Shown here: piece by piece, positions 26,521 through 41,298 of the stretch | Numbering within the stretch: position 1 is the first letter of the stretch | Layout of the letters: every line of letters starts with the position of its first letter | Source of the DNA: Chitinophaga sp. XS-30 | GTDB lineage: Bacteria; Bacteroidota; Bacteroidia; Chitinophagales; Chitinophagaceae | Reading direction: 5' to 3' | Assembly (NCBI RefSeq): GCF_008086345.1 | Contig: NZ_CP043006.1 | Location: 2,602,032 to 2,666,031, forward strand | Length of the DNA: 64,000 bases | Program-made: the position numbers and the translations under genes | The notes under the pieces: generated by a model | Told to the model about the DNA's origin: nothing | Databases searched by the model: none | What the model saw: only the letters and a program-made list of their open reading frames with translations

Positions 26521-26550
26521 TTTGATTATCCGGATTACTTCCTAAATTTG
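26521..26550 (+). promoter_or_regulatory. Promoter of the his operon
   Basis: TTTG at 26521-26524, an 18-nt spacer and TAAATTTG at 26543-26550, an exact match to the Bacteroidota sigma factor consensus. The transcript should begin near 26557, only about 11 nt before the leader-peptide ATG. Confidence 0.8.
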
Positions 26551-26567
26551 CACTCGAATTATAAAAC

Positions 26568-26633
26568 ATGAACAACAACGTACATACACATCATCACCAT
26601 ACTTACCCGAACGGTAGGCAGGGGATGCTGTAA
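26568..26633 (+). CDS. hisL: Histidine operon leader peptide
   Basis: 21-codon open frame too short for most gene finders. The peptide starts MNNNVHTHHHHTYPNG: five of its codons 6-11 are His (CAT ACA CAT CAT CAC CAT). It lies between a consensus promoter and a terminator hairpin, immediately upstream of hisG. When charged tRNA-His is scarce the ribosome should stall on this run, directly before the first pairing segment (26602-26607). This is the classic attenuation arrangement known from enterobacterial his operons; here it is deduced from sequence alone. Confidence 0.9.
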   Translation: MNNNVHTHHHHTYPNGRQGML

Positions 26634-26688
26634 TGTACATGCAGATATTCACCATAAAAGGCTTACCGCATCCCGGTAAGCCTTTTTT
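26602..26688 (+). terminator. his attenuator (mutually exclusive hairpins with terminator)
   Basis: Segment 1 CTTACC (26602-26607) can pair with segment 2 GGTAGG (26613-26618). Segment 2 extended, CGGTAGGC (26612-26619), can pair with segment 3 GCTTACCG (26661-26668), eight pairs including one G-U. Segment 3 also forms the terminator AAAAGGCTTACCG / CGGTAAGCCTTTT (26656-26668 with 26674-26686, five-base loop) followed by a T tract. Segment 1 starts two bases after the last His codon, so stalling there frees segment 2 for antitermination. Confidence 0.87.
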
Positions 26689-26698
26689 GTTTCAAACC

Positions 26699-26797
26699 GG
26701 ATGAAACGGAGGTTTCTCCCGGCCCGTGAAAAATAAAAATGAACTGATGAGACGTAAGTCCCATTTGGCCCGTAAAGTATAAAAATGTACAAATGAA
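26699..26797 (+). repeat. Start-site hairpin element, copy E (tandem, before hisG)
   Basis: Two full units with ATGs at 26701, 26747 and 26793, exactly 46 nt apart. Unit 1 hairpin: CCGGATGAAAC-GGAG-GTTTCTCCCGG. Unit 2 hairpin: CTGATGAGAC-GTAA-GTCCCATTTG with a GNRA loop. The loop-proximal pairs differ between units yet stay paired. CATTTG (26762-26767) is perfectly complementary to CAAATG (26790-26795) spanning the hisG start. The short frames MKRRFLPAREK and MRRKSHLARKV end before the next ATG. Confidence 0.75.
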
Positions 26798-27647
26798 ACT
26801 GCGAATTGCCATCCAGAAGTCCGGCCGCTTACACGACGATTCTATCAAACTGCTGAAAGAATGCGGGATAGATATCAACAACGGCGTTAACAAACTCAAG
26901 ACAGAAGCCAGTAACTTCCCGCTGGAAGTATTCTTCCTCCGCGATGATGATATTCCGCAGTACGTGGAAGACGGTGTGGCAGACATCGGTATTGTCGGAG
27001 AGAATGTCGTGCTGGAAAAGAACCGACCTTTGCGCACCGTGGAAAAGCTGGGTTTCGGCAAATGCCGTTTAGCCATGGCCGTTCCCAAAGCAATGGACTA
27101 CAACTCCATCCAGGACCTGAACGGGCAGCGCATCGCCACCAGCTATCCCGTGATCCTGGGCGATTATCTGCAAAAAATGGGGATCACCGCCGAGATCCAC
27201 GAGATCAGCGGCTCCGTGGAAATAGCGCCCGGCATCGGGCTGGCAGATGCGATCTGCGACCTCGTGAGCAGCGGTTCCACCCTGTTCATGAACGGATTGA
27301 AGGAAGTGGAGACCATCCTCCGCTCCGAAGCCATCCTGGTATCCAACAACGCACTCACCCCCGAGCAGGAGCAATTGCTGGGCAAACTGATCTTCCGCAT
27401 ACAGGCCGTGAAAAAAGCCAAGAATAATAAGTACGTGCTGCTGAATGCCCCAAACAACAAGTTGCCCGAGATCATCGGCCTGCTTCCGGGCATGAAAAGC
27501 CCCACCGTACTGCCGCTGGCGGAAGCCGGATGGAGTTCTGTGCATTCGGTGCTGAATGAAAATGATTTCTGGGACATCATCGAAAGCCTGAAAGCCGCAG
27601 GGGCACAGGGCATACTGGTGGTGCCGATCGAAAAAATGGTGATTTAA
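26793..27647 (+). CDS. hisG: ATP phosphoribosyltransferase (long form)
   Basis: First step of histidine synthesis: ATP + PRPP to phosphoribosyl-ATP. 284 residues, the long HisG form with a C-terminal regulatory domain (about 210-284, ACT-like) that binds histidine for feedback inhibition, so no HisZ is needed. MKLRIAIQKSGRLHDDSIKL opens the protein; GVADIGIVGENVV and GIADAI-like ADAICDLVSSGSTLFMNGL form the PRPP/ATP site. The start is fixed by the upstream repeat element. Ten bases separate it from hisD. Confidence 0.97.
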   Translation: MKLRIAIQKSGRLHDDSIKLLKECGIDINNGVNKLKTEASNFPLEVFFLRDDDIPQYVEDGVADIGIVGENVVLEKNRPLRTVEKLGFGKCRLAMAVPKAMDYNSIQDLNGQRIATSYPVILGDYLQKMGITAEIHEISGSVEIAPGIGLADAICDLVSSGSTLFMNGLKEVETILRSEAILVSNNALTPEQEQLLGKLIFRIQAVKKAKNNKYVLLNAPNNKLPEIIGLLPGMKSPTVLPLAEAGWSSVHSVLNENDFWDIIESLKAAGAQGILVVPIEKMVI

Positions 27648-27657
27648 AAAACTCGTT

Positions 27658-28935
27658 ATGCAGATCATCCGCTATCCGGAAAAAGATACCTGGGGCCAGC
27701 TGTTGCAACGCCCCGCACTGGATACCCGCCAGCTGGAAGCCACCGTGTCCGCCATCCTTGCCGATGTAAAAGCAAAAGGGGATGCCGCACTGATACAATA
27801 CACCCAACAGTTCGATAAAGTAACGTTAACGGATATACAGGTTTCTCCGGAAGAATTTGCCGAAGCGGACGCAATGCTGGAAGAATCGCTGAAGGCTGCC
27901 ATCCGCCTCGCTGCTGCCAATATCGAAGCCTTTCACCGCCCGCAGGTGGAAGCCGTGAAGATGGTGGAAACCATTCCCGGTGTGCAATGCTGGCGTAAAC
28001 CCGTGGGCATTGAAAAGGTGGGCCTCTACATCCCCGGCGGCACGGCGCCGCTGTTCTCCACCATCCTCATGCTGGCCATCCCCGCCCGCCTGGCCGGTTG
28101 CAGCCGCATCGTATTATGCACGCCGCCCGGAAAGAACGGGACGGTGCATCCCGCAGTGTTATGGGCGGCGCAATACACCGGTATCACCGAGGTGTTCAAG
28201 ACCGGCGGCGTACAGGCTATCGGCGCCATGGCTTACGGTACCGAAAGTGTTCCGAAAGTCTACAAGATCTTCGGTCCGGGTAACCAGTATGTCACCTGCG
28301 CCAAACAGCTGGTGAACAGCGCCGGCACGGCTATCGACATGCCTGCCGGTCCATCTGAAGTAGCCGTTTTTGCGGATGACAGCTGTGTACCGGCCTTCGT
28401 AGCGGCAGACCTGCTCTCGCAGGCGGAACACGGGGCGGACAGCCAGGTATTGCTGGTGACCACCTCGGAAGCTGTGCTGACAGCGGTGGAAGCTGCCGTA
28501 CAGGAACAGCTGGCGTTGCTTCCGCGGAAAGACCTTGCCGCCAAAGCCCTCGGCAACAGCAAACTGGTACTGGTGAGCGACCGGGATGAAGCGATGGACA
28601 TGCTTAACGCCTACGCTCCCGAGCATCTCATCATGGCCTGTGAAAATGATGAGGCCCTCGCCACCAGGGTCATTAACGCCGGCTCCGTATTCCTCGGCAA
28701 CTATTCCCCCGAAAGCGCGGGCGACTACGCTTCGGGTACCAATCATACGTTGCCGACCAATGGGTATGCCACGGCTTACAGCGGCGTGAGCGTGGACAGC
28801 TTTGTGAAAAAGATCACCTTCCAGCGCCTGAGCCGGGAAGGCCTGCAATCCATCGGTCCCGCTATTGAAGCCATGGCTTCCGCCGAAGGGCTGGAGGCAC
28901 ACCGCAGGGCCGTATCCATCAGAATAAATCCGTAA
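27658..28935 (+). CDS. hisD: Histidinol dehydrogenase
   Basis: Last two steps of histidine synthesis (histidinol to histidine, NAD+, zinc). 425 residues. IYGPGNQYVTCAKQ-like FGPGNQYVTCAKQLVN, DMPAGPSEVAVFAD, LLSQAEHGADSQV (zinc-site Gln/His) and YAPEHL (Glu-His) are all present, as is the C-terminal GDYASGTNHTLPTNG with the zinc-site Asp/His. Lies between hisG and hisC with 10- and 9-nt gaps. Confidence 0.98.
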   Translation: MQIIRYPEKDTWGQLLQRPALDTRQLEATVSAILADVKAKGDAALIQYTQQFDKVTLTDIQVSPEEFAEADAMLEESLKAAIRLAAANIEAFHRPQVEAVKMVETIPGVQCWRKPVGIEKVGLYIPGGTAPLFSTILMLAIPARLAGCSRIVLCTPPGKNGTVHPAVLWAAQYTGITEVFKTGGVQAIGAMAYGTESVPKVYKIFGPGNQYVTCAKQLVNSAGTAIDMPAGPSEVAVFADDSCVPAFVAADLLSQAEHGADSQVLLVTTSEAVLTAVEAAVQEQLALLPRKDLAAKALGNSKLVLVSDRDEAMDMLNAYAPEHLIMACENDEALATRVINAGSVFLGNYSPESAGDYASGTNHTLPTNGYATAYSGVSVDSFVKKITFQRLSREGLQSIGPAIEAMASAEGLEAHRRAVSIRINP

Positions 28936-28944
28936 TTACAATAT

Positions 28945-30009
28945 ATGTTCGATCTGAATAGTCTGTTAAGGGACAACATCAAACGCCTCGTACCGTATTC
29001 CTCCGCCCGCGATGAATTCAAGGGTGATGCATCCGTTTTCCTGGATGCCAATGAGAACAGCTTCGGCTCCCCGCTGCCGGTGGCGTATCATCGTTATCCG
29101 GACCCGCTGCAATGGAAAGTGAAGTACAAGCTGGCCGATATCAAAGGTGTGCCGCCGCAGAACATCTTCCTGGGCAATGGCAGCGATGAGGCCATCGACC
29201 TGCTGTTCCGCGCATTCTGCCGCCCGGGCACCGACAATGTGCTGCTTTGCCCCCCAACCTACGGCATGTACGAAGTAAGCGCGAACATCAATGATGTGAC
29301 GGTGCGGAAAGCTACGCTTACGGCCGATTTTCAGCTGGACTTACCGGCCATGGAGGCTGCGATAGATGCCAATACCAAGCTCATTTTCATCTGTTCCCCC
29401 AACAATCCTACGGCGAATGCTATACGAAGGGAAGACATCGAGATGGTCCTGAATAATTTCGATGGCATTGTGGTGGTGGATGAGGCCTACATCAACTTCT
29501 CCCGGCAGAAAACACTGATACAGGAATTGACGGAATACCCGAATCTCGTCATCCTGCAAACCCTTTCCAAAGCCTGGGGCCTCGCAGCTCTGCGGGTAGG
29601 GATGGCCTTTGCCAGTGAAGACATTATCAATGTGTTCAACAAAGTGAAACCGCCGTATAATATCAACCAGGCCTCGCAGGAACTGGCGCTGGAAGCACTG
29701 AACAATATTGAACAGGTCAATAGCTGGATCAGGGAAACCGTGGAAGAGCGGGGTAAACTGGAGCAGGCGCTGAATACCCTGCCCATCGTGGAAAAAGTAT
29801 ATCCAAGTGACGCCAACTTCCTGCTGGTGAAAACCACCGATGCCAAAGGGATCTACCAGCACCTGGTGGATAAAGGCATTATCGTGCGTGACCGCTCCAG
29901 GGTGGAACTTTGCGCCGGATGCCTGCGGATCACCATCGGCACACCGGTAGAAAATGTACAGTTGTTTACCGCTTTGCGGGATATGGCGGGGCTGCAAGGC
30001 TCCATCTGA
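28945..30009 (+). CDS. hisC: Histidinol-phosphate aminotransferase
   Basis: PLP-dependent transamination of imidazole-acetol phosphate with glutamate. 354 residues. FLDANENSFGSPLP binds substrate phosphate/PLP region, NGSDEAIDLLFRAF, SPNNPTANAI, VVDEAYINFS (Asp/Tyr) and LQTLSKAWGLAALRVG (Schiff-base Lys) are in order. The last codons and stop (CTCCATCTGA) form part of the start-site element of hisB, so the gene end and the element are interlocked. Confidence 0.97.
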   Translation: MFDLNSLLRDNIKRLVPYSSARDEFKGDASVFLDANENSFGSPLPVAYHRYPDPLQWKVKYKLADIKGVPPQNIFLGNGSDEAIDLLFRAFCRPGTDNVLLCPPTYGMYEVSANINDVTVRKATLTADFQLDLPAMEAAIDANTKLIFICSPNNPTANAIRREDIEMVLNNFDGIVVVDEAYINFSRQKTLIQELTEYPNLVILQTLSKAWGLAALRVGMAFASEDIINVFNKVKPPYNINQASQELALEALNNIEQVNSWIRETVEERGKLEQALNTLPIVEKVYPSDANFLLVKTTDAKGIYQHLVDKGIIVRDRSRVELCAGCLRITIGTPVENVQLFTALRDMAGLQGSI

Positions 30010-30039
30010 CCCGTAAAAGAATAAAAATGAACTAATGAA
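29986..30039 (+). repeat. Start-site hairpin element, copy F (before hisB)
   Basis: GGGGCT-GCAA-GGCTCC, spanning the last hisC codons, forms a six-pair stem on a GNRA tetraloop. CATCTGACCCGTAAAAG, an A-rich stretch and CTAATGAAA follow. CATCTG (30003-30008) makes only four of six pairs with CTAATG (30032-30037), the weakest start pairing except copy G. The hisC stop TGA is inside the conserved core. Confidence 0.6.
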
Positions 30040-31168
30040 ACGCGTATTATTTATAGACAGGGACGGCACTATGATCAGGGAGGTGCCGCCTACTTACCAG
30101 ATCGACAGCCTCGAAAAAGTGGTGTTCTACCCCAAAGTGTTCACCTACCTCGGCAAGATAGCGGCGGAGCTGGATTACGAACTGGTCATGGTCACGAACC
30201 AGGACGGTCTCGGTACGGCCTCATTCCCCGAAGAAACGTTCACCGCCCCGCACCGGCACATTATGCAGTCCTTCGAAAACGAGGGTATCACCTTCGCCGC
30301 CGTGCATATCGACAAAAGCTTCCCTGCGGATAACCTGCCTACCCGCAAACCCGGTACCGGTATGTTGCAGCAGTATTTTTCCCCGGAATATGATCTGGCC
30401 AATTCCTATGTGATCGGTGACCGTATTACCGATGTGAAACTGGCGCAGAACCTCGGCGCCAAAGCCATCTGGCTGAATGCCGATGCCTCGCTGGGCGCCG
30501 CGGAAGTAACGGATATAGATAGCCTGAAAGATGTCATAGCGCTGGAAAGCACGGACTGGGCGAAGATATACGAGTTCCTGAAGATCGGTCTCCGGAAAGT
30601 GGAGCACGTCCGCACCACGAAGGAAACGGATATCCGGATATCGCTGAACCTCGACGGGAAAGGGCAGGCGAATATCCACACCGGCCTCGCTTTCTTCGAT
30701 CATATGCTGGACCAGATCGCAAGGCATGGCAGCATAGACCTGGACATCCAGGCGAAAGGGGACCTGCACATCGATGAACATCACACCATCGAAGATACCG
30801 GCATTGCCCTGGGAGAAGCCTTTGCCATGGGGCTTGGGGACAAGAAAGGAACAGAGCGATATGGTTTCTGCCTGCCGATGGACGACTGCCTGGCGCAGGT
30901 GGCGATAGACTTCGGCGGCCGTAACTGGATCGTCTGGGATGCAGCATTCAAAAGGGAAAAGATCGGGGAAATGCCTACGGAGATGTTCTTCCACTTCTTC
31001 AAATCCTTCTCCGACGCGGCCAGGTGCAACCTGAACATCAAAGCCGAAGGGGAGAACGAGCATCACAAGATCGAAGCGATCTTCAAAGCCTTTGCAAAAG
31101 CCGTCAAGATGGCCGTGAAACGCAATCCGGACAATATGCAATTGCCAAGTACAAAAGGGGTGTTGTAA
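30035..31168 (+). CDS. hisB: Bifunctional histidinol-phosphatase / imidazoleglycerol-phosphate dehydratase
   Basis: Two enzymes in one chain, 377 residues. The N-terminal HAD phosphatase (about 1-165) has FIDRDGTMI (catalytic Asp pair), [10 protein letters not shown] and [17 protein letters not shown]. The C-terminal IGP dehydratase (about 180-377) has [27 protein letters not shown] and [18 protein letters not shown], whose His and Glu residues bind two Mn. This fusion is also found in enterobacteria. Last gene of the first his block; the trp leader begins 57 nt downstream. Confidence 0.97.
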
Positions 31169-31184
31169 GATGATCAAAATAAAA

Positions 31185-31216
31185 TTTGCATTTTTGAATA
31201 AATCCCCCCATATTTG
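31185..31216 (+). promoter_or_regulatory. Promoter of the trp operon
   Basis: TTTG (31185-31188), a 20-nt spacer and CATATTTG (31209-31216), one base from TAnnTTTG. The transcript would start near 31223, almost at the leader ATG (31225), so the leader mRNA may be close to leaderless. An internal promoter here lets trp genes be transcribed independently of hisGDCB. Confidence 0.6.
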
Positions 31217-31224
31217 CCCTCACA

Positions 31225-31284
31225 ATGCAAACGAACATCACATACAAACATTGGTGGCACACAGAGAAATTCTCCGCTGTGTAA
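31225..31284 (+). CDS. trpL: Tryptophan operon leader peptide
   Basis: 19-codon frame MQTNITYKHWWHTEKFSAV with adjacent Trp codons (TGG TGG, 31252-31257), in a region with no other gene. Position, tandem rare Trp codons and the downstream terminator reproduce the arrangement of enterobacterial trpL. The codons just before the Trp pair are part of a 10-bp RNA pairing (31242-31251 with 31292-31301) that a stalled ribosome would disrupt. Confidence 0.9.
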   Translation: MQTNITYKHWWHTEKFSAV

Positions 31285-31352
31285 CAGTGCCATGTTTGTA
31301 TTGAACATACTTTAAGAAGGCTCGCTGTACACAGCGGGCCTTCTTCGTTTTT
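31242..31352 (+). terminator. trp attenuator (alternative hairpins with terminator)
   Basis: ATACAAACAT (31242-31251), overlapping the leader codons, pairs perfectly with ATGTTTGTAT (31292-31301). CGCTGT (31275-31280) can pair with ACAGTG (31284-31289), which can alternatively pair with the CGCTGT at 31323-31328. The terminator AAGAAGGCTCGCTGT / ACAGCGGGCCTTCTT (31314-31328 with 31331-31345, one G-U) is followed by CGTTTTT. Duplicated CGCTGT and ACAG(T/C)G segments are the typical sign of 1:2, 2:3, 3:4 competing structures. Confidence 0.87.
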
Positions 31353-31383
31353 GGCCCTTTCCTGACGGAGAGGTAACAATGGC

Positions 31384-31436
31384 CGGATGGCAGAAAAACA
31401 CCATCTGGCTGATAACAAACAACCTTAACGGATGAA
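31384..31436 (+). repeat. Start-site hairpin element, variant before trpE
   Basis: CGGATGG (31384-31390) pairs with CCATCTG (31401-31407), seven pairs with one G-U and a ten-base loop. The same CATCTG (31402-31407) pairs with CGGATG (31429-31434) over the trpE start, six pairs with one G-U, across 21 nt. The GGCCCGTAAAA core is replaced by different, still A-rich sequence, so pairing and spacing are kept while primary sequence is not. Confidence 0.6.
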
Positions 31437-32841
31437 AAAAATTCAGGTAAAAACACGATCCAAACAGATGCTGGCGGATGTCTTCACCCCGGTGAGCATC
31501 TACCTTCGCATCCGCGACAAGTTCCCCGGCAGCATCCTCCTGGAAAGCACGGACTCCCACGCCAGCGAGAACAGCTTTTCCTTCATCGGTATCAAACCCA
31601 TTGCAGGCATAGAGGTAACTTCCACCGATATCTTCGAGTTCAAATATCCCGGTCAGCCTGTTGAGCGTAAACAGCTCAAAAGCCGTCAGGAAGTGCTTAA
31701 AGAGATGGAGTCGTTCCTGAAAAGCTTTTCCTTCTCCGAAAAATCACCGGTGCCATTCGCGGAAGGACTGTTTGGATACAGTACCTATGACTCCGTTCAG
31801 TTCTTTGAAAAGATCGCTTTCAACAAACGTCCGGCAGCAGGGAATACCATTCCGTTGATGCGTTACCGTTTTTACCAGTATGTGATCGCCATCAACCACT
31901 TCAAGGATGAGATGCACCTGATCGAGAACGCTGTAGACGGTCAGGAGAGCGAATTCGATTTCCTGGAAACACTGATCCGCAACAAGGATTTTCCCAGTTA
32001 TCCGTTTTCCGCAAACGGCACGGAAGAAAGCAATATGACGGATGAGGACTACATGGCGATGGTGGAAAAAGGCCGGCAGCACTGCTTCCGCGGGGATGTT
32101 TTCCAGATCGTATTGTCCAGGGCCTTCAGCCGTGCTTTTTCGGGGGATGAGTTCAACGTATATCGCGCCCTGCGCTCCATTAATCCATCTCCTTACCTTT
32201 TCTATTTCGATTATGGTGACTATAAACTGATGGGTTCCTCTCCGGAAGCCCAGCTGATCATTAAAGACCGTAAAGCCGTGATACACCCCATCGCCGGCAC
32301 TTTCAAACGCACCGGCAATGATGAGCAGGATAAAATTCTGGCGGACCAGCTGCTGGAAGATCCCAAAGAGAATGCCGAGCATGTGATGCTGGTAGACCTT
32401 GCGCGTAACGACCTGAGCCGCTATGCGAAGGATGTGGAAGTGGAAACCTACCGTCAGATCAAATATTATTCACACGTCATTCACCTTGTCAGCGAAGTCA
32501 CCGGCAGGCTTGAAGGAGATGTAAACCCCTTTGATATCCTGGCTGCCACCTTCCCGGCAGGCACGCTTTCCGGCGCGCCGAAGTACAAGGCCATGGAGCT
32601 GATCGACAGCTATGAACCGACCGCGCGTGGTTTTTATGGCGGCTGTGTGGGATTTGTAGGGTTCAACGGCAACTTCAATCATGCCATTATGATCCGCTCC
32701 ATCCTCAGCAGGAACAACACATTGTACTACCAGGCCGGCGCGGGAGTGGTCGCCAAAAGCGTGGCCAGTTCAGAACTTCAGGAAGTGAACAACAAACTCA
32801 ATGCATTAAAACAGGCCATCAGCCTGGCTCAAAATATCTGA
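31432..32841 (+). CDS. trpE: Anthranilate synthase component I
   Basis: Chorismate to anthranilate using ammonia from TrpG; entry step of Trp synthesis. 469 residues. N-terminal SILLESTDSH holds the LLES motif that binds feedback Trp. The C-terminal chorismate-binding domain has FQIVLSRAFSRAFSG, PSPYLFYFDYG, IHPIAGTFKRTGNDEQD, HVMLVDLARNDLSRYA and TFPAGTLSGAPKYKAMELID. Its stop is one base from trpG, fitting a two-subunit complex. Confidence 0.97.
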   Translation: MKKIQVKTRSKQMLADVFTPVSIYLRIRDKFPGSILLESTDSHASENSFSFIGIKPIAGIEVTSTDIFEFKYPGQPVERKQLKSRQEVLKEMESFLKSFSFSEKSPVPFAEGLFGYSTYDSVQFFEKIAFNKRPAAGNTIPLMRYRFYQYVIAINHFKDEMHLIENAVDGQESEFDFLETLIRNKDFPSYPFSANGTEESNMTDEDYMAMVEKGRQHCFRGDVFQIVLSRAFSRAFSGDEFNVYRALRSINPSPYLFYFDYGDYKLMGSSPEAQLIIKDRKAVIHPIAGTFKRTGNDEQDKILADQLLEDPKENAEHVMLVDLARNDLSRYAKDVEVETYRQIKYYSHVIHLVSEVTGRLEGDVNPFDILAATFPAGTLSGAPKYKAMELIDSYEPTARGFYGGCVGFVGFNGNFNHAIMIRSILSRNNTLYYQAGAGVVAKSVASSELQEVNNKLNALKQAISLAQNI

Positions 32842-32842
32842 T

Positions 32843-33415
32843 ATGAATATTCTGGTGTTTGACAATTATGACTCATTTACCTATAACCTGGTACACCTTG
32901 TTGAAAAGATCATCGGCGGGAAAGTAACGGTCGTGCGGAATGATGAGATCAGTCTGGATGATGTGGAGCAATATGACCGGATCATTTTGTCCCCCGGCCC
33001 GGGAATCCCTGAGGAAGCCGGATTGCTCCTGCCGCTTATCAAACGGTATGCAGCCACCAAATCCATCTTTGGAGTATGTCTTGGTCAGCAGGCGATAGGG
33101 GAGGCCTTCGGGGCAAAGCTCATCAACCTGAAAGATGTATATCATGGCGTGGCAACGCCGGTACAGATCACCGCCCGCAGCGGCCGCCTCTTTAACGGGC
33201 TGCCCGATCAGCTGGAAGTAGGAAGGTATCACTCCTGGGTGGTAGATGAAAAGACCCTGCCTGAAGCGCTGGAAGTGACCGCGCGTGATCAGAACGGTTA
33301 TGTTATGGCCGTACAGCATAAACAGTATGATGTCAGCGGCGTGCAGTTCCATCCGGAAAGCGTGCTGACGCCGGAAGGAGAGCGGATATTGCGGAACTGG
33401 CTGAACCTGCCCTGA
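32843..33415 (+). CDS. trpG: Anthranilate synthase component II (glutamine amidotransferase)
   Basis: 190 residues, class I glutaminase supplying ammonia to TrpE. The triad is visible: nucleophile Cys in FGVCLGQQAIGEAFG, and His and Glu in VQFHPESVLTPEG. ILVFDNYDSFTYNLVHLVE is the usual N-terminus. In many bacteria this subunit also serves folate synthesis (PabA); its place between trpE and trpD points to Trp. Confidence 0.97.
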   Translation: MNILVFDNYDSFTYNLVHLVEKIIGGKVTVVRNDEISLDDVEQYDRIILSPGPGIPEEAGLLLPLIKRYAATKSIFGVCLGQQAIGEAFGAKLINLKDVYHGVATPVQITARSGRLFNGLPDQLEVGRYHSWVVDEKTLPEALEVTARDQNGYVMAVQHKQYDVSGVQFHPESVLTPEGERILRNWLNLP

Positions 33416-33468
33416 TCAGGCACCGGAGCGTAAACATATCTGAATCAACATCAACGAATGCAACACCC

Positions 33469-34461
33469 ATGAAAAAGATACTGAACTACCTGTTCGAACA
33501 CAAGACCTTCTCCCGGGAAGGCGCCCGCGAGATACTCACCAATATCTCCAAAGGCACATACAACGAAAGTGAGCTGGCGGCTTTTATGACGGTCTTCCTG
33601 ATGCGCAGCATCACCATCGAAGAGTTGCTGGGTTTCCGCGATGCCCTTTTGGAACTCTGTGTACCGGTGAACCTGGACGGCCATGCCGTGCTGGATATCG
33701 TAGGCACCGGCGGCGATGGCAAGAATACCTTCAATATCTCCACGCTTTCCTGCTTCATTGTGGCCGGTGCAGGCGGGAAGGTAGCCAAACACGGTAACTA
33801 TGGCGTATCTTCGATCAGCGGGGCTTCCAACGTGATGGAATCCGTAGGGTACAAGTTTAAAAGCGATCAGGGCAAGCTGCGGCAGGAGATAGAAGAAGCC
33901 GGCATCTGTTTTTTACATGCACCGCTCTTCCACCCGGCGCTGAAGAATGTAGCCGGTGTACGGCGCCAGCTTGGGGTGCGCACATTCTTTAACATGCTCG
34001 GGCCGCTGGTGAACCCGGCTTTCGCGCAGCACCAGCTGATCGGCGTGTACAACCTGGAAATGGCGCGCATTTATAATTATCTGTTCCAGCAGACCGATAA
34101 ACAGTTTGCCATCGTACACAGCCTGGACGGATATGACGAGATCTCCCTCACCGGAGATACCCGCATCATCACCAATAAAGGAGAACAGGACTGGACGCCC
34201 GAAGCGCTCGGCAAACGCAAGGTGCATGCGGAAGACATTTATGGCGGCAACTCCCCGGAAGAAGCCGCGAAGATATTCATGAAAGTATTGAAAGGCGAAG
34301 GCAGCTGGGCGCAGCATTCCGTTGTGATGGCCAATGCCGCCATGGGCCTCTATTGCCTGGAAAAATACCCGACTTATGAGGAATGCTTTCTGGCAGCGGT
34401 GGAATCCCTGGAATCCGGCGCGGCTTACAGAACATTCAGCAAACTGATCGCATTACAGTAA
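33469..34461 (+). CDS. trpD: Anthranilate phosphoribosyltransferase
   Basis: Transfers phosphoribose from PRPP to anthranilate. 330 residues. GTGGDGKNTFNIST binds PRPP, KHGNYGVSSISGASNVMESVG is the second substrate loop, and RTFFNMLGPLVNPA the anthranilate region. No fused TrpG domain, unlike enterobacteria. 53 nt after trpG with A-rich leader. Confidence 0.97.
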   Translation: MKKILNYLFEHKTFSREGAREILTNISKGTYNESELAAFMTVFLMRSITIEELLGFRDALLELCVPVNLDGHAVLDIVGTGGDGKNTFNISTLSCFIVAGAGGKVAKHGNYGVSSISGASNVMESVGYKFKSDQGKLRQEIEEAGICFLHAPLFHPALKNVAGVRRQLGVRTFFNMLGPLVNPAFAQHQLIGVYNLEMARIYNYLFQQTDKQFAIVHSLDGYDEISLTGDTRIITNKGEQDWTPEALGKRKVHAEDIYGGNSPEEAAKIFMKVLKGEGSWAQHSVVMANAAMGLYCLEKYPTYEECFLAAVESLESGAAYRTFSKLIALQ

Positions 34462-34466
34462 TCAAG

Positions 34467-34511
34467 GATGAGCCTTAAATAATGCTCATCTGATCAACAA
34501 GAACAAATGAA
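34467..34511 (+). repeat. Start-site hairpin element, distant variant before trpC
   Basis: GATGAGC (34467-34473) pairs perfectly with GCTCATC (34484-34490). CATCTG (34487-34492) can make five of six pairs with CAAATG (34504-34509) at the start, but the loop is only 11 nt. No GGCCCG core. Included as a possible relative of the family. Confidence 0.4.
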
Positions 34512-35334
34512 GAACATCCTGGCAGAAATTGTCGAGCATAAAAAAACAGAGGTCACAGAGCGCAAGAAAAGGCGTGGTGTGGATGAATTGAAGCATTCCC
34601 AGATGTTCAGCCGCCCGGTGCATTCCCTTCGCGCTTTCCTGAAAAGCCCGGGGCGTAACGGCATCATTGCCGAATTCAAGCGGCAGTCCCCCTCCAAAGG
34701 ATTGATCAATGGTACCGCAAGTGTGCAGGATGTAACCGCCGCATATGCCCGCAATGGCGCATCCGGTTTGTCGGTACTGACCGACCAGCAATTTTTTGGC
34801 GGATCGATGGATGACCTGCAGCAGGCGCGTGCCGTGAACAGCATCCCCATTTTGCGAAAGGATTTCGTGATCGATGAATACCAGATAGCGGAAGCCAGGG
34901 CCATCGGCGCCGATGTGATCCTGCTGATAGCCGAATGCCTCAGCAAAGCCGAAGTGGCGCATCTGGCGAAATATGCGGTGGACCTGGGCCTGGAAGTATT
35001 GCTGGAAGTGCATAGCGCAGAACAGCTGAAGAAGATCACCCCCGATACCCAACTGGTGGGGATCAATAATCGTGACCTGACCACCTTCAAAGTAGATATT
35101 CACCGTTCCATGGAACTGCTGAAGCAGATCCCGGCGGAATACAGCAAAGTGGCGGAAAGCGGTATGGATGACCCGGCTACTATCGTTACGCTGAAAAACG
35201 CAGGTTTTGACGGGTTCCTGATCGGAGAGCATTTTATGAAGGCAGAGAACCCCGGCAGTGCATTCGAAGCATTTACACAACGGTTGAAAGAGTTGACGGA
35301 TGTGCAGGCTCAACCCCCGCATACCGGCGGTTGA
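34507..35334 (+). CDS. trpC: Indole-3-glycerol phosphate synthase
   Basis: 275 residues, (beta/alpha)8 barrel that closes the indole ring. GIIAEFKRQSPSKGLI carries the catalytic Lys and Ser-Pro-Ser-Lys phosphate loop, VLTDQQFFGGSMDDL, ILRKDFVIDEYQ (second Lys), LVGINNRDLTTFKVD and AESGMDDPATI follow in the standard order. Stand-alone enzyme; trpF is a separate downstream gene. Confidence 0.97.
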   Translation: MKNILAEIVEHKKTEVTERKKRRGVDELKHSQMFSRPVHSLRAFLKSPGRNGIIAEFKRQSPSKGLINGTASVQDVTAAYARNGASGLSVLTDQQFFGGSMDDLQQARAVNSIPILRKDFVIDEYQIAEARAIGADVILLIAECLSKAEVAHLAKYAVDLGLEVLLEVHSAEQLKKITPDTQLVGINNRDLTTFKVDIHRSMELLKQIPAEYSKVAESGMDDPATIVTLKNAGFDGFLIGEHFMKAENPGSAFEAFTQRLKELTDVQAQPPHTGG

Positions 35335-35368
35335 GAGGGCTTGAACGTAAAAGCATAATATCAAAAGC

Positions 35369-35998
35369 ATGAAAATAAAAGTCTGCGGTATCACCAGGCC
35401 TGAAGACCTGGAAGCATTAGTAGAACTCGGCGCCGACTACGCCGGTTTCATCTTTTACGGCAAATCGCCCCGCTTTGCAGGCAACAAACTCGATGGCAGA
35501 ACCGTGCGCGAAAAAGGGAAGAATATCAGCAAAGTAGGCGTATTCGTTAATGCCGATGCCCGGCAGATCATGCAGACCGTCAAAGATTATGCGCTCGACC
35601 TCATCCAGCTGCATGGAGAAGAAAGCGCTGCCCTGTGCGGACAATTGCGGGAGACCGTTCCGGTAATGAAAGTGTTTCATGTGCATGAAAAAGGATACGA
35701 ACAGGTGTCCCCGTACCTCGGCGCCAGCGATTACTTCCTGTTCGATACCGCCAGCGCGGATTACGGAGGTACCGGCCGGCAGTTCAACTGGGAACTGCTG
35801 AAAGATTACGGGTTCGATCAGCCCTTTTTCCTGAGTGGCGGTATCGGTCCGGCTGATGCGGATACCCTGCGGCAATGGGCACATGAAAAACTGTTTGCCG
35901 TTGACGTCAACAGCCGGTTTGAAACATCCCCGGGTGTGAAAGACCTGGAAAAGGTCGCGGCATTCATCAAACAATTAAAAGGAAAAACAAAAAAATAG
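35369..35998 (+). CDS. trpF: Phosphoribosylanthranilate isomerase
   Basis: 209 residues, small (beta/alpha)8 barrel. [20 protein letters not shown] holds the catalytic Cys, [11 protein letters not shown] the phosphate region, [35 protein letters not shown] (catalytic-type Asp) and [11 protein letters not shown]. Presence of a dedicated TrpF means the HisA homologue in this cluster need not be a dual-function PriA-type enzyme. Confidence 0.96.
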
Positions 35999-36006
35999 CA
36001 CGCATC

Positions 36007-37212
36007 ATGGATATAGCGGTGGATACCTTGCAATCCAGGTATCATGTAAACGAAAAAGGCTACTATGGAGAATTTGGCGGAGCGTACATCCCCGAGATGC
36101 TCTATCCCAATGTGGAAGAGCTGCGGTTGCAATACCTGCAGATCATGGCGGAGCCTGCTTTTCAGGCGGAGTTTGAGCAATTGCTGAAAGATTATGTAGG
36201 CCGGCCTTCTCCCTTGTACTTCGCCAAACGCCTCTCCGAAAAGTACAAAGCAAAGATCTATCTCAAGCGGGAAGACCTGAACCACACCGGCGCGCACAAA
36301 GTGAACAACACCATCGGCCAGATATTGCTGGCCAAACGCCTGGGCAAAAAACGCATCATCGCGGAAACAGGGGCCGGTCAGCATGGCGTGGCCACCGCCA
36401 CCGTATGCGCCCTGATGGATATGGAGTGCATTGTGTACATGGGCAGTGTGGACATCCAGCGCCAGGCCCCCAACGTAGCGCGGATGAAAATGCTCGGCGC
36501 CACCGTAGTGCCGGCCACCAGCGGCAGCAAAACCCTCAAAGACGCCACGAACGAAGCTATCCGCGACTGGATCAACAATCCCGTGGATACCCATTATATC
36601 ATCGGCTCTGTGGTAGGCCCGCATCCGTATCCGGATATGGTGGCCCGCTTCCAGTCCGTTATCTCCGAAGAAATTAAACAGCAGCTGCTGGAAAAAACAG
36701 GCAGTGAAGATCCGGGTTATGTGATCGCCTGCGTAGGTGGCGGCAGCAATGCCGCAGGCGCATTCTTCCATTTCACGGATCGCGAAAACGTGAAGCTGGT
36801 AGCCGTGGAAGCCGCCGGAAAGGGGCTGGACAGCGGGTACTCCGCCGCCACATCGCAGCTCGGCAAACCGGGCATCATACATGCCAGCAAAACCCTGCTG
36901 ATGCAAACGGAAGACGGCCAGATCGTGGAACCGCATTCTATTTCGGCGGGACTGGATTATCCCGGTGTAGGGCCGATGCATGCACATCTCTATCAGACCG
37001 GCCGCGCGCAGTTCCTCAACGCCACCGATGAAGAATCCCTCGCCGCCGCATATGAACTGAGCCTGCTGGAAGGGATCATTCCCGCGCTGGAATCCGCGCA
37101 TGCGCTGGCGAAGCTGAAAGAGCTGCCGCTGAAGCCGGAAGACGTTGTAGTGGTATGCCTCAGCGGCCGCGGAGATAAAGACCTGGAAACCTATATCAAA
37201 CATCTAAAGTAA
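36007..37212 (+). CDS. trpB: Tryptophan synthase beta chain
   Basis: 401 residues, PLP enzyme joining indole and serine. [13 protein letters not shown] at the N-terminus, Schiff-base Lys in [16 protein letters not shown], catalytic Glu in [14 protein letters not shown], and [12 protein letters not shown] binding PLP phosphate. Canonical TrpB1 length. Five bases separate it from trpA, its partner in the alpha2-beta2 complex. Confidence 0.98.
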
Positions 37213-37217
37213 AGGCC

Positions 37218-37988
37218 ATGAACCGCATCGACCAGTTATTCAGCAACAGATCCTCCAACATACTCAACATATACTGTACCGCGGGGTTCCCGGCCCTGAA
37301 CGACACCCTCACCGTTGTGGAAGCGCTGCAGCAAAGCGGCGCCGACATGGTGGAACTGGGCATGCCCTTTTCCGATCCCCTGGCGGACGGGCCGGTGATA
37401 CAGGACAGCAGCACCCGCGCCATCGCCAATGGCATGCGCATCAGCGTGCTGTTCGAACAGCTGAAAGGGTTCCGGGACCGTATAAGCCTTCCCGTTATCC
37501 TCATGGGATATATGAACCCCGTATTGCAGTTCGGCGTGGAGAACTTCTGCAAGAAATGCGCGGAAACCGGGATAGACGGGCTTATTCTGCCTGACCTGCC
37601 CATGGATGAATATGAAAGTCAATACCGGCCCCTGTTCGAACAGTACGGCCTGCATCTCATCTTCCTGGTGACACCCGAAACCAGTGAAGCCCGCATCCGC
37701 AAGATCGACAGCCTGAGCAAAGGTTTTGTATATGCCGTTTCTTCCTCTTCCACAACGGGGAAAGACAAGGTAATGGCCGATCAGCAGGCCTACTTCGCCC
37801 GTCTCAAAAGCATGCAGCTGAAGAACCCGGTGCTGATCGGTTTCGGCATCAGGGATAAGGCCACATTCAACACTGCCTGCGCCAACAGCAACGGCGCCAT
37901 CATCGGCAGCGCTTTTGTGAAAGCCATCGAAAACAGTACTAACTTGCAGCAGGATATCCTGCAATTCGTGGAAAATATAAAAAAGTAA
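37218..37988 (+). CDS. trpA: Tryptophan synthase alpha chain
   Basis: 256 residues, cleaves indole-glycerol phosphate. MVELGMPFSDPLADGPVIQ contains the catalytic Glu and Asp; FVYAVSSSSTTG is the phosphate-binding turn and GFGIRDKATF the last barrel strand. Ends the trp block; 86 nt and a start-site element separate it from hisH. Confidence 0.97.
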   Translation: MNRIDQLFSNRSSNILNIYCTAGFPALNDTLTVVEALQQSGADMVELGMPFSDPLADGPVIQDSSTRAIANGMRISVLFEQLKGFRDRISLPVILMGYMNPVLQFGVENFCKKCAETGIDGLILPDLPMDEYESQYRPLFEQYGLHLIFLVTPETSEARIRKIDSLSKGFVYAVSSSSTTGKDKVMADQQAYFARLKSMQLKNPVLIGFGIRDKATFNTACANSNGAIIGSAFVKAIENSTNLQQDILQFVENIKK

Positions 37989-38011: not shown

Positions 38012-38079
38012 CGGGCATGAGCGGCATGCTGATGCGAGGTTCCACCCGGCCCGTAAAAATTCAAATATTGACCGATGAA
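38012..38079 (+). repeat. Start-site hairpin element, copy G (before hisH)
   Basis: CCGGG (38011-38015 region) and CCCGG near 38046 can close an outer stem. TTCCACCCGGCCCGTAAAAA, an A-rich stretch and CCGATGAAA follow. CACCCG (38043-38048) makes four of six pairs with CCGATG (38072-38077). Conserved core, weaker pairing. Confidence 0.6.
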
Positions 38080-38668
38080 AACAGCCATCATCAAATATAA
38101 CGCCGGTAACATCCGTTCCGTGTTGTTCGCCCTGGAACGCCTGGGAGTGGAAGCAACGGTAACTGACGACCCGGAAGAGCTGCGTTCGGCGGATAAAGTG
38201 ATCTTTCCCGGTGTGGGAGAGGCCAGCACCGCCATGAACTACCTCAGGGAAAGGAAGCTGGACCTCCTGATCCGTGATCTCCAACAACCCGTGCTCGGCA
38301 TTTGCCTCGGCATGCAGCTGTTATGCAAACATTCGGAAGAAAATGATACGGAATGTCTCGGCGTGTTCGACCTGCCGGTGAAGAAGTTCGTTTCGCCGGT
38401 GGACAATCTGCTGAAGATCCCGCAGATCGGCTGGAACAATATTGCCGGCTTGCACAGCGTCATCTTCGAGCATGTACCGGAGAACAGCTACATGTACTTT
38501 GTGCACAGTTATTATGTAGCGCTGGGTCCCGAAACCACCGCTATTGCGAACTACGTGATCAACTACAGCGCCGCCCTGCAAAAGGATAATTTTTATGCTG
38601 TGCAGTTCCATCCGGAAAAATCCGCGGAAGCCGGTCAAAACCTCATTGAAAGTTTCCTGAAATTGTGA
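38075..38668 (+). CDS. hisH: Imidazole glycerol phosphate synthase, glutaminase subunit
   Basis: 197 residues. Supplies ammonia to HisF for imidazole ring closure. Nucleophile Cys in LGICLGMQLLC, His/Glu of the triad in VQFHPEKSAEAG, and IKYNAGNIRSVLFALERLG at the N-terminus. Its stop TGA overlaps the GTG start of the following GNAT-hisA fusion. Opens the second his block after the trp insertion. Confidence 0.97.
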   Translation: MKTAIIKYNAGNIRSVLFALERLGVEATVTDDPEELRSADKVIFPGVGEASTAMNYLRERKLDLLIRDLQQPVLGICLGMQLLCKHSEENDTECLGVFDLPVKKFVSPVDNLLKIPQIGWNNIAGLHSVIFEHVPENSYMYFVHSYYVALGPETTAIANYVINYSAALQKDNFYAVQFHPEKSAEAGQNLIESFLKL

Positions 38669-39810
38669 GCGTGACCATCAGAAATATTACAACGGAAGAT
38701 ACCCTGCCCCTGCGCAGGGATGTACTGTATCCGCACTGGCAGCTGGAACAGGTGCGTGTGGACCATGACGATGAAGGATGGCATTTTGGCCTGTATGAAG
38801 GGAAAGAACTGGTAACCGTAGTGTCCCTCTTCATCAGCGGCCCTGCTGCGCAGTTCCGGAAGCTGGCCACCGCAGCCCATTACCGCGGTAAAGGTTACGG
38901 TAAAAGGATGATGCAGCATCTGCGGGAAGTCTGCCTCCGCCACGGTGTGCGCACCCTCTGGTGCAATGCGCGCGATTCCGCGGAAACCTTCTATTTACAG
39001 CTGGGCTTTACCCGCACCAGTGATATATTTTACAAAGACGATATTGCGTTCTATAAAATGGAGATCAATCTGAAAGCCCCGGATACCGGGCGTTTTAATA
39101 TCATTCCCGCCATCGACATCATCGATGGTAAATGTGTGCGCCTCACACAAGGGGACTACGATCAGAAAAAGGTGTACAATGAGCATCCGCTCGAAGTAGC
39201 GAAAGAGTTTGAGAACAGCGGCATCAAACGCCTGCACCTCGTGGATCTGGACGGCGCGAAGAAAGGCGCGGTAGTGAACTGGAAAGTGCTGGAAACCATC
39301 GCCGGAAAAACCGGGATGGTTATCGATTTTGGCGGCGGCATCAAAAGCGATAAGGATGTAGCCATCGTATTTGAAAGCGGCGCCGCCATGGCCACCATCG
39401 GCAGCGTAGCCGTAAAGCAGCCGGAGCTGTTTTTTCACTGGCTGAAAACATACGGTGCGGAAAAAATGTTCCTCGGCGCGGATGTGAAGGAAGAAAAGAT
39501 CGCCGTAGGCGGATGGCTGGAAACAACGGAGCTGAGCGTATTCGATTTCCTGAAAGCCAATAAGGAAAAAGGCGTCACACAGGTATTCTGTACCGATATC
39601 GCAAAGGATGGCCTGTTGCAGGGCGCTTCCACCGACCTTTACCGCAAGATCATCGAAAATGTGCCGGGCATACAGCTCACGGCCAGCGGGGGCGTCAGCC
39701 ATATCGGGGACGTGGAGGAACTGAAAGAAGCCGGCCTGGCCGGCGTGATCATCGGCAAAGCGATCTATGAAGGACGCATCACATTAGCGGAATTAAAGAA
39801 ATTTATATAA
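38665..39810 (+). CDS. hisA: GNAT acetyltransferase-HisA fusion (ProFAR isomerase)
   Basis: 381 residues, about 135 more than normal HisA. The N-terminal part (1-130) is a GNAT acetyltransferase with [20 protein letters not shown] (acetyl-CoA loop RxxGxG type) and [15 protein letters not shown] (C-terminal GNAT strand). After a short linker ([12 protein letters not shown]) HisA begins with [41 protein letters not shown] and [12 protein letters not shown] complete it. No stop codon separates the parts. An ATG at 39058 could still start HisA alone. The start is a GTG overlapping the hisH stop. HisA isomerises ProFAR to PRFAR; the GNAT target is unknown. Confidence 0.9.
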
Positions 39811-40565
39811 TGCTCACAAAACGCATCATCCCCTGTCTGGATATCAAGGACGGACGTACCGTAAAGGGCGTCAACTTCGAGAACATCCGCGATGCCGGAG
39901 ACCCGATAGAACTGGGCGCATTGTATGCGCAGCAGGGAGCGGACGAACTGGTGTTCCTGGACATCACCGCCACCAACGAGCGCCGCAAAACGCTCTCCGA
40001 ACTGGTGACCCGCATTGCCCGGCATGTGAATATTCCCTTTACCGTTGGTGGCGGCATCTCCTCCGTGGAGGACGTTAGCGTACTGCTGAATGCCGGGGCG
40101 GATAAAGTGTCCGTAAACACCGCGGCATTCAAAGATCCGGGATTGCTCAACGCCCTTTCCCGCGAATTCGGCAGCCAGTGCATCGTACTGGCTATCGATA
40201 CCCGCTTTGAGGATGGCGACTGGTTCGTGTACCTTAACGGGGGCCGGGTGAAAACGGATACCCGTACGACCGACTGGGCAAAGGAAGCCGTAGAACGCGG
40301 CGCCGGAGAGATACTCCTTACCTCCATGAATAACGACGGCACCAAGCAGGGCTTTGCCCTGGATATCACCCGCCGCCTGTCTGAAAACCTGAACGTACCG
40401 GTCATCGCTTCCGGAGGCGCAGGCACTATGGAGCATTTTGCCGATGTATTCGAAAAAGCGCATGCCGATGCCGCCCTGGCCGCCAGCATTTTCCATTACA
40501 AGGAGATAGCCATCCAGGACCTGAAGAACTACCTCTACCACAGGGGGATACAGATCCGGTTTTAG
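39810..40565 (+). CDS. hisF: Imidazole glycerol phosphate synthase, cyclase subunit
   Basis: 251 residues, (beta/alpha)8 barrel. [18 protein letters not shown] holds the first catalytic Asp, [20 protein letters not shown] and [15 protein letters not shown] the second Asp region, and [13 protein letters not shown] the phosphate loop. Start ATG shares one base with the stop of hisA (TAATG), so translation is coupled. Works with HisH. Confidence 0.97.
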
Positions 40566-40701
40566 GCAGCTGCCCATGGACGGATACATCACCGGCTTTT
40601 TACGGCGGCGGCAAACTATCACCAGCGGGCTTTCAGGGCCCATGTGTCCGCTTTTAGCCGTAACTTTACAGATTATTTTATTATATTTAATCATAATATA
40701 G

Positions 40702-41298
40702 ATGCAGGTAGATTTTTCAAAGTCACCGGACGGGCTGGTTCCCGCCATTATCCAGGACGCCATTACCAACAAGGTGCTGATGCTTGGATATATGAACCGT
40801 GAAGCGCTGGACAAAACGCTGGCGGAGGGAAAAGTGACTTTTTTCAGCCGTTCCAAGAACAGGCTGTGGACCAAGGGAGAAGAAAGCGGCAATTTCCTGC
40901 ACCTGCAGCATTCGGCGATCGACTGCGATGGTGATACGCTGCTGTTGAAGGTAAATCCCGCAGGGCCTGTCTGCCATACCGGCACCGATACCTGCTGGGG
41001 CGAAACGAACAAAGCGGCCGCCACGTTCCTGCACTCGCTGGAACAGGTGATCCGGGACCGGAAGAACAACCCGACCGAAAAATCCTACACGGCATCCCTC
41101 TTCGCCAAAGGCATCAACAAAATTGCCCAGAAAGTAGGGGAGGAAGCAGTGGAAGTGGTGATTGAAGCGAAAGACAATAATGATGAGCTTTTTCTGAATG
41201 AATCGGCGGACCTGCTGTTTCATTATTTGATACTGCTGCAGGCCAAAGGCTTTACGCTGGAGGATGTAGTGACCATATTAAAAGACCGGCATAAATGA
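40702..41298 (+). CDS. hisIE: Bifunctional phosphoribosyl-AMP cyclohydrolase / phosphoribosyl-ATP pyrophosphatase
   Basis: 198 residues carrying steps two and three of the pathway. The HisI half (1-105) has LGYMNREALDKTLAEGKV, AIDCDGDTLLLKVNPAG and CHTGTDTCWGE with the zinc/metal Cys and Asp residues. The HisE half (about 110-198) has KINKIAQKVGEEAVEVVIEA with the Mg-binding Glu residues. A 136-nt gap, unusually long for this cluster and AT-rich at its end, precedes it, so an internal promoter is possible. Its stop overlaps the next ATG (ATGA). Confidence 0.97.
   Translation: MQVDFSKSPDGLVPAIIQDAITNKVLMLGYMNREALDKTLAEGKVTFFSRSKNRLWTKGEESGNFLHLQHSAIDCDGDTLLLKVNPAGPVCHTGTDTCWGETNKAAATFLHSLEQVIRDRKNNPTEKSYTASLFAKGINKIAQKVGEEAVEVVIEAKDNNDELFLNESADLLFHYLILLQAKGFTLEDVVTILKDRHK

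Follow-up and report, generated by a model that had tools for sequence, protein, structure and literature searches.

The leaders of the E. coli ilvGMEDA, ilvBN and thr operons carry control codons for several amino acids. These operons are named in PMC1183508. Two components of the present case were already known: the trp leader RNAs of Bacteroidetes, described as the tryptophan peptide leader RNA Bacteroid-trp (RF01692; Weinberg et al., 2010; PMC2864571), and the his-trp-his gene order, described in 2021 as a his operon interrupted by trp genes in Thermoflavifilum thermophilum and Filimonas lacunae (PMC8305728). The latter paper mentions no leader and refers to attenuation a single time, in its general introduction. 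Attenuation by leader peptides ahead of amino-acid operons has also been noted in Flavobacterium psychrophilum (PMC9723704). Our literature search, in which subscription journals were thinly covered, returned no leader combining Trp and His codons, no tie between a His codon of a trp leader and downstream his genes, and no paper on leader peptide attenuation in Chitinophaga operons.

The window, by which we mean the whole 64,000-nt stretch of DNA analysed, comes from Chitinophaga sp. XS-30, whose genome is a single contig of 6.18 Mb. On the + strand, its genes follow the order hisG-hisD-hisC-hisB, trpE-trpG-trpD-trpC-trpF-trpB-trpA, hisH-(GNAT)hisA-hisF-hisIE, which is the same kind of gene order as in the two species of PMC8305728. 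The best NCBIfam model for trpE scored 435 of 518 bits, which is under its curated cut-off. The leader ORF sits between hisB and trpE (Table 1). Judged from its sequence, we consider the element to be a ribosome-mediated trp attenuator of a known kind. Like the E. coli trp leader (Trp_leader, RF00513), it has a short tandem-Trp ORF, a pairing over the control codons, an antiterminator and a terminator before trpE, and positions 31246-31347 span the full RF00513 model at 29.4 bits (E 2.6e-4), below the cut-off of 41. Like Bacteroid-trp, in the accessible description of that RNA, it is a tryptophan peptide leader of Bacteroidota; RF01692 scored 27.2 bits on the window (E 0.34; gathering cut-off 49), and its sole match at the cut-off among the 40 loci scanned was L154, a leader reading WWWS (71.3 bits) whose trp genes are not linked to his genes. 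Unlike the E. coli trp leader, however, the leader of the window has His codons flanking its Trp codons, his genes downstream, and a predicted transcription start that stands almost at the start codon. It resembles the ilvGMEDA, ilvBN and thr leaders in that one leader covers several amino acids, since the genes behind it serve several, but those genes belong to a shared pathway, whereas the window joins two separate pathways in one transcription unit.

Table 1. Features of the his-trp-his locus, in positions of the window.
Feature	Position	Strand	Basis or remark
his leader before hisG	26568..26686	+	peptide MNNNVHTHHHHTYPNGRQGML (26568-26633), terminator 26656-26686
Proximal his genes hisG, hisD, hisC, hisB	26793..31168	+	upstream of the trp leader; hisB ends at 31168
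Predicted promoter	31185..31216	+	TTTG (31185-31188), 20 nt, CATATTTG (31209-31216)
Leader peptide ORF (trpL) MQTNITYKHWWHTEKFSAV	31225..31284	+	sequence; stop TAA 31282-84; kept in 27/27 genus sequences
Segment 1	31242..31260	+	can pair with 31287-31301 when no ribosome covers segment 1
Control codons CAT TGG TGG CAC (His-Trp-Trp-His)	31249..31260	+	sequence; CAT 31249-51, TGG 31252-54, TGG 31255-57, CAC 31258-60
Segment 2	31274..31301	+	31274-31289, antiterminator half; 31287-31301, partner of segment 1
Intrinsic terminator (segments 3 and 4, then T5)	31314..31352	+	terminator scan, sequence
trpE, trpG, trpD, trpC, trpF, trpB, trpA	31432..37988	+	NCBIfam matches; trpE begins at 31432
Distal his genes hisH, GNAT-hisA, hisF, hisIE	38075..41298	+	behind the trp attenuator

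The original prediction placed a tandem-Trp leader peptide and a terminator stem inside the his-trp cluster, and the ORF, the codons and the hairpin were all found. The sequence WW occurs in 14 of the 1043 ATG-started short frames of the whole window (8-40 aa, both strands, nested starts included). After the leader ORF, a hairpin of -24.2 kcal/mol stands before a T-run; at a limit of -12 kcal/mol, one of the other 13 WW frames has a hairpin that barely passes (-12.1 kcal/mol), and 12 are without one. Folding of 31224-31360 gave -49.6 kcal/mol compared with -29.6 (sd 3.8) for shuffles (z -5.2), none of the 200 being as good. In an alignment of 27 sequences (24 genomes of the same genus, two more, and the window itself), the leader, two or three Trp codons, the following His codon and the terminator are present in all 27, with two reading Trp-Arg-Trp. 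A chance origin of the leader is excluded because of this conservation. The terminator stem had been described as covering 15 positions; its arms (31314-31328/31331-31345, with T5 at 31348-31352) are indeed 15 nt long, but the innermost pair would close a 2-nt loop, and the scan gives 14 pairs and a 4-nt loop. In the genus alignment, 95.8% of the terminator cells are paired, compared with 28-58% in slid controls, and three pairs are changed on both sides.

The promoter of the form TTTG-N20-CATATTTG is near the Bacteroidota consensus TTTG / TAnnTTTG, and it predicts a transcription start at about 31221 and a 5′ leader of about 4 nt. Across the class, a -7-like box stands before 130 of the 172 leaders searched (53/870 in shuffled controls), and its distance to the leader ATG is 4-10 nt in 104 of these 130 (median 7). 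With the box at -12 to -5, as given in PMC9723704, the 5′ leader in those 104 cases would be 0-6 nt long. By such spacing, the trp leader mRNAs of the class look nearly leaderless, for example at 31209-31225 of the window. In this phylum, leaderless mRNAs make up only a small share of transcripts: they account for 5.5% in Flavobacterium psychrophilum (PMC9723704), and 5′ UTRs under 10 nt for 3.7% in Bacteroides thetaiotaomicron (PMC7366714).

The element has two mutually exclusive structures, an antiterminator and a stem spanning the control codons, and both are kept in the genus. Segment 1 can pair through 31242-31250:31293-31301 and 31255-31260:31287-31292; this stem is paired in 83.5% of cells (slid controls 30-44%), with both sides changed in 4 pairs, and its inner part, TGGCAC/GTGCCA, in 97.5%. 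The antiterminator, formed by 31274-31289 with 31323-31337, has 15 pairs and one bulged A and is paired in 92.5% of cells (slid controls 16-54%); in the genus alignment, it had no covariation and was not better than column shuffles (427/500). A perfect 10-bp pairing of 31242-31251 with 31292-31301, which the original prediction singled out, is present in the sequence and forms the outer, weaker half of the control-codon stem. We rejected it as the main switch: its main helix is kept in 70.4% of the genus cells, and it leaves the terminator untouched. The pairing that decides termination is likely that of 31274-31289 with 31323-31337, where there is an additional perfect 10-bp pairing (31274-31283/31328-31337) absent from the prediction. 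Conservation in relatives, which had been proposed as a check, gave a divided result: the Trp codons are kept in all 27 sequences but the outer pairing only in part. The claim of duplicated segments likewise stands by half: CGCTGT occurs twice (31275-80 and 31323-28), but ACAGTG occurs once (31284-89) and is able to pair with either CGCTGT. The downstream ribosome edge was assumed to lie 13 nt from the A-site codon, counted from its first base. With the ribosome stalled at Trp or the next His, folding from this edge to 31337 gave the antiterminator (-26.5 kcal/mol), and with the ribosome at the stop codon the terminator formed, which is how ribosome-mediated attenuation is expected to work. 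When the whole terminator has been transcribed, the terminator is the lower-energy state; therefore, the antiterminator must form first, during transcription.

Separate control of the trp genes within the his cluster had also been proposed. With a promoter-like sequence and a leader and attenuator of their own, the trp genes can, on sequence grounds, be controlled apart from hisGDCB. They do not stand alone, however, as hisH-A-F-IE lie behind the same attenuator and His codons flank the Trp codons. In the window genome, the gap from trpA to hisH is about 86 nt, and a search of it for a his leader or a TAnnTTTG box found neither, which places the distal his genes behind the trp attenuator. Within this distal group, 38665-39810 is a single open frame joining a GNAT acetyltransferase domain to HisA. 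Among the 68 loci in which hisA was read, the two are fused in 27 (24 of them in the window's genus), GNAT is a separate gene beside hisA in 9, and no adjacent GNAT was found in 32.

The proximal his genes are preceded by a leader of their own, and a box, TAAATTTG (26543-26550), lies ahead of its peptide. The top Rfam scores in this region (26543-26686) were 32.8 bits for Thr_leader and 23 bits for His_leader, both under the cut-offs. A His-rich leader was present ahead of hisG in 34 of 34 loci examined, two of which have a Trp residue in a listed frame.

To compare the His codon with gene order, we read leaders from Chitinophagaceae (f1, the family of the window), from the class, and from two other families of mixed linkage. 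Of the 113 f1 genomes in which trpE was matched, 81 were covered, roughly one for each genus with a second for some; the reading also took in 46 of 49 further class genomes and 31 of 44 from f30. Linkage was assigned from the position of the his genes. Of 183 loci in total, we excluded 17 whose linkage could not be assigned and 9 that have no Trp-run leader (8 unlinked and one linked, L091), which leaves 157. Both trpE loci of G195 were counted; G103, with hisF 48 kb downstream, was scored as unlinked; and of the genomes without a hisF match, four in f1 were scored as unlinked and two outside f1 (G191, G292) were given no linkage. Eight unlinked cases stand at contig ends; a stricter set drops these eight and adds G342, G344 and G191 as unlinked. 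A set of named species was kept out of the counts.

Several loci in this collection are unusual. Four (L167, L170, L173, L179) have trpB ahead of trpE and no Trp-run leader close before trpE, and four others (L054, L077, L097, L132), an f1 clade with unlinked trp genes, have a different leader, YWWLSRWQ. The two leaders of G195 (L168 and L169) read WRWQ and WWWF. No hisF match at E 1e-50 was obtained in G081, G125, G158 and G183, whose leaders continue from the Trp run with Gln, Gln, Gln and His, respectively.

Among the 157 leaders, the codon next to the end of the Trp run encodes His in 83 of the 85 that are linked versus 24 of the 72 that are unlinked (Fisher 9e-20), and in the stricter set the counts are 83/85 versus 23/67 (83/2 versus 23/44 as His/non-His). 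The linked exceptions are L112, which reads WWWQH, and L230, without His nearby. By family, the ratio of His to non-His is 67/1 linked versus 10/14 unlinked in f1, 13/1 versus 11/5 in f30 (p 0.18, not significant alone) and 3/0 versus 0/1 in f48; it is 3/28 in the remaining families, all of which are unlinked. Of the leader's His codons, it is the one behind the Trp run that is tied to his linkage; a His immediately ahead of the run occurs in 25 of 85 linked versus 1 of 72 unlinked leaders. When CAN codons alone are considered, CAY:CAR (His:Gln) is 83:1 linked versus 24:19 unlinked (p 7e-10), and 67:1 versus 10:9 within f1. The linked leaders use both CAT (48) and CAC (35), which indicates that the amino acid rather than a base is kept. 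In the named species, Filimonas zeae is linked and has His, and Arachidicoccus ginsenosidivorans is unlinked and has Gln; unlinked species with His are Draconibacterium orientale (trpE at 1.01 Mb and hisF at 2.41 Mb of one chromosome), Draconibacterium sediminis, Kaistella antarctica, Halpernia frigidisoli and Prolixibacter denitrificans.

Because the genomes are related, Fisher tests alone were judged unsafe, and tree-based tests were used. On the TrpE tree, a correlated-evolution test gave a likelihood ratio (LRT) of 42.2 (p 1.5e-8), with 41.1 on a second tree. The LRT was 24.1 for f1 alone (p 8e-5; reached by 0 of 98 null simulations) and 16.6 outside f1 (p 0.0023). On the stricter set, the LRT was 38.9 over all leaders, with 21.8 as a further value. 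On the f1 tree, the observed Fisher p was reached by 27 of 2000 null simulations, and 10 of the 11 non-His clades of f1 are unlinked. Strict independent pairs on supported branches numbered 11, with means of 4.2 for, 0.2 against and 6.5 ties (median p 0.125), a number of pairs at which this test lacks power. The fitted rate of His loss is 3.6 unlinked versus 0.14 linked in f1 but 1.5 unlinked versus 9.5 linked outside f1, where His gain and several rates lie at their bounds; we therefore draw no conclusion as to which trait changed first. The statistical tie between the His codon and hisHAFIE downstream is itself an observation.

In the 74 linked loci for which the trpA-hisH gap was read, its median is 30 nt, and it is 150 nt or less in 63. 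Judging by these gaps, the his genes behind trpA are mostly without a leader of their own; in the gaps longer than 40 nt in Chitinophagaceae, the search for a his leader listed just two six-residue HH frames. A TAnnTTTG box was present in 8 of the 74 gaps, including all 3 of f48 and both of f30, and where the gap holds such a box, the distal his genes may have their own promoter. In both linked f30 loci whose gap was read, hisHAFIE are preceded by an additional His-rich leader with a terminator. With a His leader (f30) or a promoter-like box (f48) in the gap, it is less clear why the trp leader would need a His codon there. In these two f30 loci (L192, L194), the peptide in the gap reads MNPTPRTY(V/I)HHS... 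with its terminator and lies between two genes. The gene before it, we presume, is DAHP-synthase-like and the one after it phenylalanine-hydroxylase-like, followed by hisHAFIE.

According to the mechanism that we propose, transcription would start a few nt before the leader ORF or enter from hisGDCB. If tRNA-Trp and tRNA-His were charged and plentiful, the ribosome would reach the stop codon (31282-31284) and cover segment 2, the hairpin 31314-31345 would form, and RNA polymerase would stop near 31352. In a shortage of Trp, the ribosome would wait at 31252-31257, and in a shortage of His, at 31249-31251 or 31258-31260. Either stall would cover segment 1 and leave 31274-31289 free for 31323-31337; the antiterminator would then block the terminator, and the polymerase would enter trpEGDCFBA and afterwards hisH-A-F-IE. 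The element is probably a composite attenuator in this sense, opened by a shortage of Trp or His. We infer the stalling, the termination, and the sufficiency of one or two His codons for sensing histidine. A single His codon may sense weakly, by analogy with the link between codon number and sensitivity in PMC1183508.

A tentative alternative, to which we give distinctly less credence, is a plain attenuator responding to Trp only, in which the His codon senses nothing and owes its retention either to the RNA, with CAY taking part in the pairing of segment 1, or to common descent. Of the 24 genus leaders that have the partner, 23 show a pairing between segment 2 and the third base of this codon, and the RNA and codon explanations are thus confounded there. 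Moreover, 60 of the 72 unlinked leaders also have C as the base following the Trp run, as if an RNA pairing held TGGC, so that some RNA constraint is likely; the retention of His in a third of the unlinked operons (24/72) would also be in keeping with this alternative. However, when one partner motif was sought, the partner sequence was missing in 42 of the 56 linked His leaders outside the genus, and among the 12 leaders elsewhere in the family that do have it, just 2 show pairing of the third base. As the reason for the His codon, RNA pairing therefore fits the genus and fails elsewhere for the one motif sought, and we set it aside as the main explanation. It also leaves unexplained the near-absence of CAR in linked leaders alone and the tree-based tie.

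The same unlinked leaders with His, together with several distant named species, would accord with a His codon that is a general cross-pathway signal in the trp leaders of the class, independent of gene order, as both pathways use PRPP. We find this improbable, because CAY and CAR are close to even in unlinked leaders and only 3 of 31 leaders outside f1, f30 and f48 have His. Even harder to accept is an ORF that is not a sensor, with the operon controlled by reinitiation, by a protein-bound terminator (TRAP-like) or by a T-box. Nothing specific speaks for it, and the window has no Rfam match at the cut-offs; tandem Trp codons just before mutually exclusive hairpins are the usual layout of ribosome-mediated attenuation, and this layout stands before trpE in most of the class genomes read.

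A broader reading, to which we give a probability of roughly 0.55, is that gene order shapes the codons of the leader peptide: a trp attenuator enclosed in a his operon would act as an either-or sensor for Trp and His and so keep the distal his genes under histidine control, and once the clusters had parted, the His codon would be lost, in most cases to Gln through a change of its third base. Attenuators in series, His before hisG and Trp plus His before trpE, would then coordinate one his-trp-his transcription unit. The position of the last histidine genes downstream of this attenuator is probably the reason why the leader carries His codons. Without a response to histidine, a polymerase that had passed the his attenuator would halt at the trp attenuator when tryptophan was plentiful; with the His codon, the distal his genes could be expressed when histidine is scarce, even if tryptophan is plentiful.

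At their cut-offs, the two Rfam trp leader models miss the trp attenuators in most of the loci scanned. The merger of two operons creates a conflict of control, in that the attenuator of one pathway gates genes of another. The many genomes in which these clusters are joined or parted offer a natural experiment on the way regulation adapts to gene order, and they suggest a possible solution to this conflict: a single added codon in a leader peptide some 20 residues long.
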